From Nocardioidaceae bacterium (GTDB lineage: Bacteria; Actinomycetota; Actinomycetes; Propionibacteriales; Nocardioidaceae), in contig JAGIBL010000014.1 in NCBI GenBank assembly GCA_017744365.1, positions 1 through 34,673 on the forward strand: a DNA stretch of 34,673 nt, in the 5' to 3' direction. The notes under the pieces are model-generated. The model was not told where the DNA came from and searched no databases. It saw nothing but the letters and a program-made list of their open reading frames with translations. Each line of letters begins with the position of its first letter. Positions within the stretch are counted from its first letter, which is position 1. The translations under genes were made by a program, and so were the position numbers. Shown here in pieces: positions 29,982 through 31,195 of this stretch.

Positions 29982-30587
29982 TCAGAGCGTGGCCGGCAGC
30001 CTCCGCGGCTCGAGGACCTGGTCCACGATCCCGTAGTCGATCGCGGCCTGCGCCGTCAGCACGCGGTCCCGATCGGTGTCGGCGCGCACCTGCTCCGGCG
30101 TCCTGCCGGTGTGCCGCGACAGGATCTCCTCCAGCAGCGTCCGCACCCGCGCGATCTCCTCGGCCTCCAGGATCAGGTCCGGGATGGTGCCGCGGCCCTG
30201 CGTCGCGGGCTGGTGCAGCACGACCCGGCCGTGGGGAAGGATCATCCGCCGCCCGGGCTCACCGCCGGCCAGCAGCACGGCAGCCGTCCAGGCGGCCTGG
30301 CCCACGCAGGTGGTCTCGACCGGCGCCGCGACGAACTGCATCGCGTCGTAGACCGCCAGCATCGCGGTGATGCTGCCACCCGGCGAGTTGAGGTAGAGGC
30401 TGATCGGCAGGTCCGGGTTGGCGGACTCGAGGTGCAGGAGCTGGGCGATCAGCGCGTTCGCCACGCCATCGTCGATCTCGGTGCCCAGGTAGATGATCCG
30501 GTCCTCCAGCAGCCGGCTGTAGAGGTCGACGGTCCGCTCGCCGCGCGGGGTCGTCGTGGTCACGTACGGGATCGTGTACTGGCCCAT
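29982..30587 (-). CDS. ClpP-like protein lacking the catalytic serine (ClpR-like)
   Basis: A 201-residue ClpP-fold protein with LYLNSPGGSITAMLAVYDAM, H125 in VVLHQPATQG and D174 in DTDRDRVLTA, as in ClpP. However, the position of the nucleophile in the C-x-G-x-A-A-S motif reads CVGQAAWTAAVLL: Trp at residue 100 (codon TGG, one base from TCG). It should therefore be proteolytically inactive and may act as a structural subunit, as ClpR does in cyanobacteria and plastids. Its ATG shares one base with the stop of the upstream active clpP (TGATG), so both are made together and probably form mixed rings. A sequencing error is possible but would need a single precise change. Confidence 0.85.
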   Translation of the reverse strand: MGQYTIPYVTTTTPRGERTVDLYSRLLEDRIIYLGTEIDDGVANALIAQLLHLESANPDLPISLYLNSPGGSITAMLAVYDAMQFVAAPVETTCVGQAAWTAAVLLAGGEPGRRMILPHGRVVLHQPATQGRGTIPDLILEAEEIARVRTLLEEILSRHTGRTPEQVRADTDRDRVLTAQAAIDYGIVDQVLEPRRLPATL

Positions 30588-31195
30588 CAGCGCACCAGCC
30601 CCATCCGGTGCGTGCGCGGAGGCGCCACGTCGTCGACGCTCTCGATCACCTTGTCGACGAAGCCGTAGTCGCGGGCCGCGGTGGCGGTGAACCAGCGGTC
30701 CCGGCGCGAGTCCTGCTCGACGGTGGCGACGTCCTGACCGGTGTGCTCGGCGATGAGGCCGAGCACGGTGTCGCGGGTGTGCCGGAGGTCCTCGGCCTGG
30801 ATCTCGATGTCGACGGCGGTGCCGCCGATGCCGGCCGAGCCCTGGTGCAGCAGGATGCGCGCGTGCGGCAGGGCGAAGCGCTTGCCCGGCGTACCGGCCG
30901 AGAGCAGGAACTGGCCGGCGCTGGCCGCCATCCCCATCGCCAGCGTGCTGACGTCGTTGGGGATCAGCCGCATCACGTCGTGGATCGCGAGCATCGCCGA
31001 GACCGAGCCGCCGGGGGAGTTGATCCACAGGCTGATGTCGGACCGGGCGTCCTCGGCGGAGAGCAGCAGCAGCTGCGCACAGAGTCGGTTCGCGTCGTGG
31101 TCCTCGAGCGCCTTGCCGAGGACGATGATGCGCTGGGCCATGAGCCGCTGGGCGAGGAGGTCGTCCACTCCCGCGGCGAGCGTCGTACTGGTCAT
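30587..31195 (-). CDS. clpP: ATP-dependent Clp protease proteolytic subunit (active paralogue)
   Basis: A 202-residue ClpP with a complete triad: S92 in GMAASAGQFLLS, H117 in ILLHQGSAG and D166 in DSRRDRW, plus the oxyanion strand LWINSPGGSVSAML. ATG at 31195 is preferred over GTG 31261, which would add a leader of 22 low-complexity residues. This paralogue pairs with the Ser-less ClpP-like protein behind it, resembling the clpP3-clpP4 secondary operon of Streptomyces rather than the clpP1-clpP2 genes near clpX. It would degrade unfolded proteins and short-lived regulators together with a Clp ATPase, none of which is in the window. Confidence 0.92.
   Translation of the reverse strand: MTSTTLAAGVDDLLAQRLMAQRIIVLGKALEDHDANRLCAQLLLLSAEDARSDISLWINSPGGSVSAMLAIHDVMRLIPNDVSTLAMGMAASAGQFLLSAGTPGKRFALPHARILLHQGSAGIGGTAVDIEIQAEDLRHTRDTVLGLIAEHTGQDVATVEQDSRRDRWFTATAARDYGFVDKVIESVDDVAPPRTHRMGLVR

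Follow-up and report, generated by a model that had tools for sequence, protein, structure and literature searches.

The clpP operon and its Trp-bearing subunit

The window analysed here, a stretch of 34,673 nucleotides from a Nocardioidaceae bacterium (contig JAGIBL010000014.1), carries a two-gene clpP operon next to a popR-like gene (Table 1). We characterized the second, clpP4-type subunit of this operon, in which Trp occupies the nucleophile position of the catalytic triad. The original prediction, made from this DNA alone, had described one active and one serine-less, ClpR-like subunit in a secondary actinobacterial clpP operon. Translation and residue alignment bore this out: the downstream protein has W100, H125 and D174, the upstream protein has the full triad S92, H117 and D166, and the two genes are joined by a TGATG overlap. 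The downstream protein matches PF00574 (peptidase S14) and has the ClpP fold, and with W100-H125-D174 it lacks the Ser-His-Asp triad of an active ClpP. W100 aligns gap-free with the nucleophile Ser of three solved ClpPs. The operon is a unit separate from the genome's other clpP pair on contig C11, where the second gene is 51% identical to the Trp subunit. A Clp-ATPase-type match about 1.1 kb beyond the C11 pair is, by its position, presumably clpX, and two additional Clp-ATPase-type matches lie elsewhere in the same genome. We found no bench study of this window's ClpP pair in the literature.

Table 1. Features of the clpP operon region, in window positions
Feature	Position	Strand	Basis or remark
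popR-like gene, 99-aa helix-turn-helix protein, tail LCLAA	29670..29969	+	convergent with clpP4; HTH_3 39.6 bits; ClgR model 60.2 bits (cut-off 170)
clpP4-type subunit of 201 aa lacking the catalytic Ser (P0001)	29982..30587	-	Pfam CLP_protease 225 bits; NCBIfam PRK00277 250.6 bits (cut-off 249)
Codon of D174, triad Asp, retained in this protein	30066..30068	-	Thr in 16/26 Trp rows
Codon of H125, triad His, retained	30213..30215	-	clpP4-type subunit
Codon 100, TGG (Trp), nucleophile position of clpP4-type subunit	30288..30290	-	CCA on the plus strand
Codon of F85, docking pocket	30333..30335	-	place of E. coli F96
Codon of Y65, hydrophobic docking pocket	30393..30395	-	place of E. coli Y76; Tyr in 107/107 second subunits
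Axial N-loop stretch, residues 5-20 of clpP4-type subunit	30528..30575	-	absent from clpP3-type partner
TGATG stop/start overlap of clpP3-type and clpP4-type genes	30585..30589	-	1-base overlap, read on minus strand
clpP3-type subunit, full triad S92-H117-D166 (202 aa, P0002)	30587..31195	-	translation, residue alignment; Pfam CLP_protease >200 bits
Degenerate tandem-palindrome (PopR-type) operator match	31238..31267	-	18/24 positions, from 72 bp before clpP3

A Trp in place of the nucleophile is a drastic change and the operator of the window is degenerate, as would fit a sequencing error, a pseudogene or a private mutation. The original prediction had allowed for this in case reads of the codon should show TCG or close relatives should all have Ser. 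The codon is TGG and the Trp is shared by relatives. The gene is present at an E-value of 1e-67 or better in 11 of 24 genomes from the genus group of the window, with Trp in five, Ser in five and Ala in one. A set of 109 rows, which leans toward the query (it holds the 80 best loci) and is uncorrected for relatedness, contains 26 Trp rows, 10 of them WHD and 16 WHT (residues at the Ser, His and Asp positions); those that are named come from Nocardioides or a Propionibacteriales metagenome-assembled genome. The predicted retention of Asp174 thus holds for this protein, though not as a general rule. In the tree the 31-row clade around the window protein (99*) has Trp in 26 rows, Ala in four and Ser in one, the latter (L080) being a long branch. 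A 21-row subclade within it (97*) has Trp throughout, and the triad Asp is gone from 16 of its members. The 120 best database proteins, query included, have Trp in 117 cases, Ala in two and Ser in one. Since Trp has a single codon and the rows had been picked for Trp, the finding of TGG in 24/24 genomes was discarded as evidence, and the clade and database counts were used instead.

The gene is also under purifying selection. After removal of the duplicates L039 and L040, 24 distinct Trp genomes remained, in which all 73 scorable fourfold columns are variable, so that these genomes are not copies of one sequence. The median pairwise omega (NG86), which is crude in GC-rich genes and usable for comparison between partners only, was 0.223 in the Trp subunit, as against 0.262 in the partner. 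The corresponding pairs of values were 0.181 and 0.184 for Streptomyces ClpP4 and ClpP3, 0.378 and 0.45 for intact-triad second subunits and their partners, and 0.329 and 0.335 for housekeeping ClpP2 and ClpP1. Purifying selection on the dead subunit is therefore at least as strong as on its partner. Given the clade counts, the database counts and this selection, with reading frame and overlap intact, an error or pseudogene was rejected and has a practically negligible probability: the Trp substitution is genuine and shared beyond this strain.

A subunit with Trp at the nucleophile position could in principle still cut by means of another nucleophile, e.g. the adjacent Thr101 together with H125, both of which are invariant in the 24 Trp genomes. 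A nucleophile shifted by one residue would depart from the elbow geometry, and the triad Asp is Thr in the majority of Trp rows (Table 1). Thr101 is furthermore not special to these proteins, as it also follows Ala (L055) and, in Streptomyces, a normal Ser (L070), and other serine-less rows (L012, L019) have Ala or Val at position 101. We consider a displaced nucleophile very improbable.

Triad loss among second subunits

For the frequency of triad loss we used an even draw of 394 genomes across the class, because the 109-row set leans toward the query; relatedness is uncorrected in this draw too. A match at an E-value of 1e-78 or better was found in 239 genomes. The E-values showed a gap between 3.9e-91 and 3.6e-87, and all 111 places above this gap were read. 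Four of them (L247, L255, L260, L261) were set aside, having no popR, a ClpP1-type partner pocket and the triad SHD throughout, which shifts the lost fraction from 65/111 to 65/107. Nine control rows of the many below the gap (L263-L271) were all SHD and had no popR match (0/9). A triad was counted as lost when Ser or His was gone. The third residue was left out since it is not essential in ClpP1 of Pseudomonas plecoglossicida, for which Ser and His are reported to be essential in passages of PMC12900304.

By this measure 65 of the 107 second subunits have lost the triad. The main triads were SHD (35), AHD (21), SGD (15), GHD (7), EHN (6), EHH (5) and SHN (4), followed by WHT (3), WHD (2), SHS (2), GHE (2) and one each of AQD, SGE, SDD, SHH and FHN. 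First subunits were SHD in 106/106 cases (one further lies off its contig), as were both genes of the housekeeping pairs (42/42 each, from 42 of 58 genomes). All 26 Streptomyces and Kitasatospora rows of the named set are SGD, and 119 further proteins obtained with a Streptomyces ClpP4 query are SGD (88), SGE (30) or SAD (1), such that the triad His is missing from every Streptomyces second subunit examined. A ClpR-like subunit in a secondary actinobacterial clpP operon is thus not unusual, contrary to what had been predicted. Our literature search found no passage stating that ClpP4 lacks a triad residue; Viala 2000, Viala and Mazodier 2002 and Gominet 2011, which deal with clpP3 clpP4 of S. 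lividans, may state so.

Some second subunits keep Ser and His and have the triad Asp replaced (SHN in L162, L188, L206 and L221; SHS in L186 and L252; SHH in L258). These are possibly intermediate states of decay. The Asn of the SHN subunits is found in Listeria ClpP1 as well. A 331-aa database protein (P0004) has tandem ClpP domains, both with GQAAS, and is either a fusion of two ClpPs or a chimera produced by assembly.

To place these losses we used a tree of 142 rows (the class-draw rows, 29 chosen named or relative rows and six ClpP2) from which the triad columns were excluded. Ser/His kept-or-lost requires nine changes on this tree, with eight of them forced by starred branches; counted separately, Ser requires six changes, His four and Asp seven. 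In distinct loss clades His is replaced by Gly (Streptomyces), Ser by Glu and, in two cases, His by Asp; a further large clade has Ala or Gly, and another has Trp, Ala, Gly or Phe. Because the tree is a quick one that leaves 47 forks open, the number of losses is taken as several rather than as an exact count. Loss of Ser or His thus arose several times in the docking-type second subunit.

ClpR of cyanobacteria, plastids and apicoplasts is likewise a triad-less ClpP homologue alongside an active ClpP, as described in passages of PMC7966870, and this same type of defect could suggest that the Trp subunit is a ClpR orthologue acquired by transfer. In our tree, which contains no ClpR sequences, the Trp clade is nested in the actinobacterial clpP4 proteins, between relatives that have Ser, and the solved chains nearest to the Trp subunit include Thermus ClpP and mycobacterial ClpP2. 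In contrast to ClpR, the loss here occurs within an actinobacterial family, repeatedly and with varied replacements, while intact relatives persist. A transfer is hardly credible on these grounds, and the best reading of the sequences is that the ClpR-like state was reached apart from cyanobacterial and plastid ClpR, and repeatedly in this class.

PopR linkage and docking elements

The popR-like gene ends 12 bp from the clpP4-type gene on the opposite strand. Because this convergent neighbour is PopR-like, the operon is of the popR-clpP3-clpP4 type. The score of its product against the ClgR model lies below the equivalog cut-off (Table 1), as expected of a ClgR paralogue. In Streptomyces, PopR activates the clpP3 clpP4 operon and is itself degraded by ClpP1P2, according to parts of PMC9765437 and PMC9775585. 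A PopR-like match was present beside 97/107 of the relatives' operons, and 93 of these proteins end in AA. A tandem palindrome resembling the published PopR site, matching at least 18 of 24 positions, precedes clpP3 in 100/108 loci (window included), compared to 24/1080 shuffles and 6/42 housekeeping upstream regions; since the consensus was composed with these loci already in view, the counts are partly circular. No clean operator was found before clpP3 of the window, the best match being 18/24. This is weaker than in the nearest relative, L002 (22/24), and than in 93/108 loci, which reach 20 or more; a change in how this strain controls the operon is possible.

With Streptomyces popR-clpP3 clpP4 the locus shares two clpP genes in one operon, a neighbouring PopR-like gene whose product ends in AA, a second subunit that also lacks one triad residue and, in most relatives, a candidate upstream operator (tandem, TCTGCC-N3-GGCAGA-like). 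It differs in that Streptomyces ClpP4 has His replaced by Gly (or once by Ala), whereas here Ser is replaced by Trp and the operator in the window is degenerate.

Other neighbours of the operon are a 571-aa extracytoplasmic function (ECF)-sigma-like protein directly upstream (31296-33011, minus strand; Sigma70_r2 42.5 bits) with a long C-terminal extension that carries a BACON_2 domain (37.9 bits). Preceding popR, a FAA_hydrolase-fold (hydratase-like) protein, an acetaldehyde dehydrogenase and an HMGL-like/DmpG-type aldolase are encoded in tandem (26842-29610, plus strand), and this run has the appearance of the lower part of a meta-cleavage route.

Clp ATPases dock onto a hydrophobic pocket (Y74, Y76 and F96 in E. 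coli) and the N-terminal axial loop of ClpP. In the class draw Tyr at the Y76 place is invariant among second subunits (Table 1), and aromatic residues at both the Y76 and F96 places are found in 93/107 second subunits versus 2/106 first subunits. The pocket of the latter is much like that of the non-docking Mycobacterium tuberculosis ClpP1 (S61, Y63, L83). The N-loop motif was present in 101/102 second and 0/102 first subunits scored (7/109 were unscored in each). The pattern also missed 40/40 housekeeping ClpP1 rows. For this operon the dead subunit thus keeps the elements for docking.

Retention of these elements bears on the possibility that the Trp subunit is regulatory or dominant-negative, i.e. 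that it enters rings of the ClpP3 type or housekeeping rings and reduces or redirects what they do, without docking an ATPase. Its catalytic Ser is gone, it is encoded alongside an active partner, and the Streptomyces accessory subunit ClpP_ADEP disrupts ClpP1 complexes activated by acyldepsipeptides (ADEP), as reported in a part of PMC12607617. A pure inhibitor, in turn, need keep neither the docking Tyr nor the N-loop. Moreover, passages of PMC9765437 describe S. lividans ClpP3/ClpP4 as a backup that supports viability, though the Streptomyces ClpP4s examined here (S. lividans itself aside) lack the triad His. We therefore regard a regulatory role as unlikely.

A proposed two-ring backup protease

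Starting from what the sequences directly establish, namely the recurrent one-sided loss, the conserved docking elements, the purifying selection and the popR linkage, we favour a PopR-type two-ring backup protease in which the ClpP3-type ring cuts and the ClpP4-type subunits form a ClpR-like docking ring, with a probability of roughly 0.77. Ring assembly, docking side, activity and PopR control are proposed here by analogy with Streptomyces and with mycobacterial ClpP1P2. PopR would switch on the ClpP3/ClpP4-type core when housekeeping ClpP1P2 fails to degrade PopR. Seven active subunits would form the cutting ring, and seven Trp subunits the opposite ring, which would dock ClpX or ClpC and hand the substrate on without cutting it. 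With docking and cutting already assigned to separate rings, the docking ring would not have needed catalysis and could have lost it repeatedly, with Ser replaced by Trp, Ala, Gly, Glu or Phe and His by Gly, Asp or Gln.

Comparable divisions are known from housekeeping ClpP1P2: In Streptomyces ClpP1 cuts while ClpP2 docks the ATPases, and in M. tuberculosis ClpP2 is the dock. The housekeeping subunits differ in that both keep Ser-His-Asp, though Streptomyces ClpP2 can do without its Ser in vitro; in S. hawaiiensis, ClpP2 has the docking role and a Ser that is not required. The catalytic site of chloroplast CLPP3 is dispensable as well, according to a part of PMC6508832. Mixed ClpP1P2 cores with an atypical triad in one subunit are described in passages of PMC12900304, with Ser-His-Pro in P. 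plecoglossicida ClpP1 and Ser-His-Asn in Listeria ClpP1. There, the third residue varies and the atypical P. plecoglossicida subunit is N-terminally truncated and lacks ClpX recognition elements, whereas in the present case it is Ser or His that is missing, and the subunit with N-loop and pocket is the dead one.

Several observations weigh against a dead docking ring. The full triad is retained in 35/107 second subunits, such that the ring may still cut in many lineages. The Ser rows L014, L017 and L080 are nested in serine-less clades, which may be due to regain, transfer or misplacement. Position 85, the F96 place, is His in 14/107 second subunits. The N-loop pattern missed 39/39 housekeeping ClpP2, whose printed rows visibly have an N-loop, and it therefore separates second from first subunits of this operon only. 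Many housekeeping ClpP1 rows have aromatic pockets, and as Streptomyces ClpP1 has one (Y76, Y78, Y98) yet does not bind ATPases, an aromatic pocket alone proves nothing about docking. Finally, the operator of the window is weak, though it lies at the usual distance (-72).

The Trp itself may be a working part that fills the dead substrate pocket of its ring in a ligand-like manner and holds the docking ring in an open, extended state, such that the protease would be on without substrate-induced activation. Its presence in all members of the 21-row subclade, 16 of which are without the triad Asp, favours this idea, and the Ala in 4/31 rows of the wider clade disfavours it. We consider it doubtful.

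Taken with the favoured two-ring arrangement, the data suggest that ClpR-like dead subunits arise repeatedly beyond the cyanobacterial and plastid line. In the loci examined, the loss is confined to the docking-type subunit of a single regulated operon and spares its partner. Such one-sided loss would constitute natural evidence for the two-ring division of labour of Streptomyces and mycobacterial ClpP1P2. As Streptomyces ClpP4 is included, the 'ClpP3P4 backup protease' becomes open to testing as an enzyme in which a single ring is active, and this is relevant to work with ADEP and beta-lactones on ClpP.
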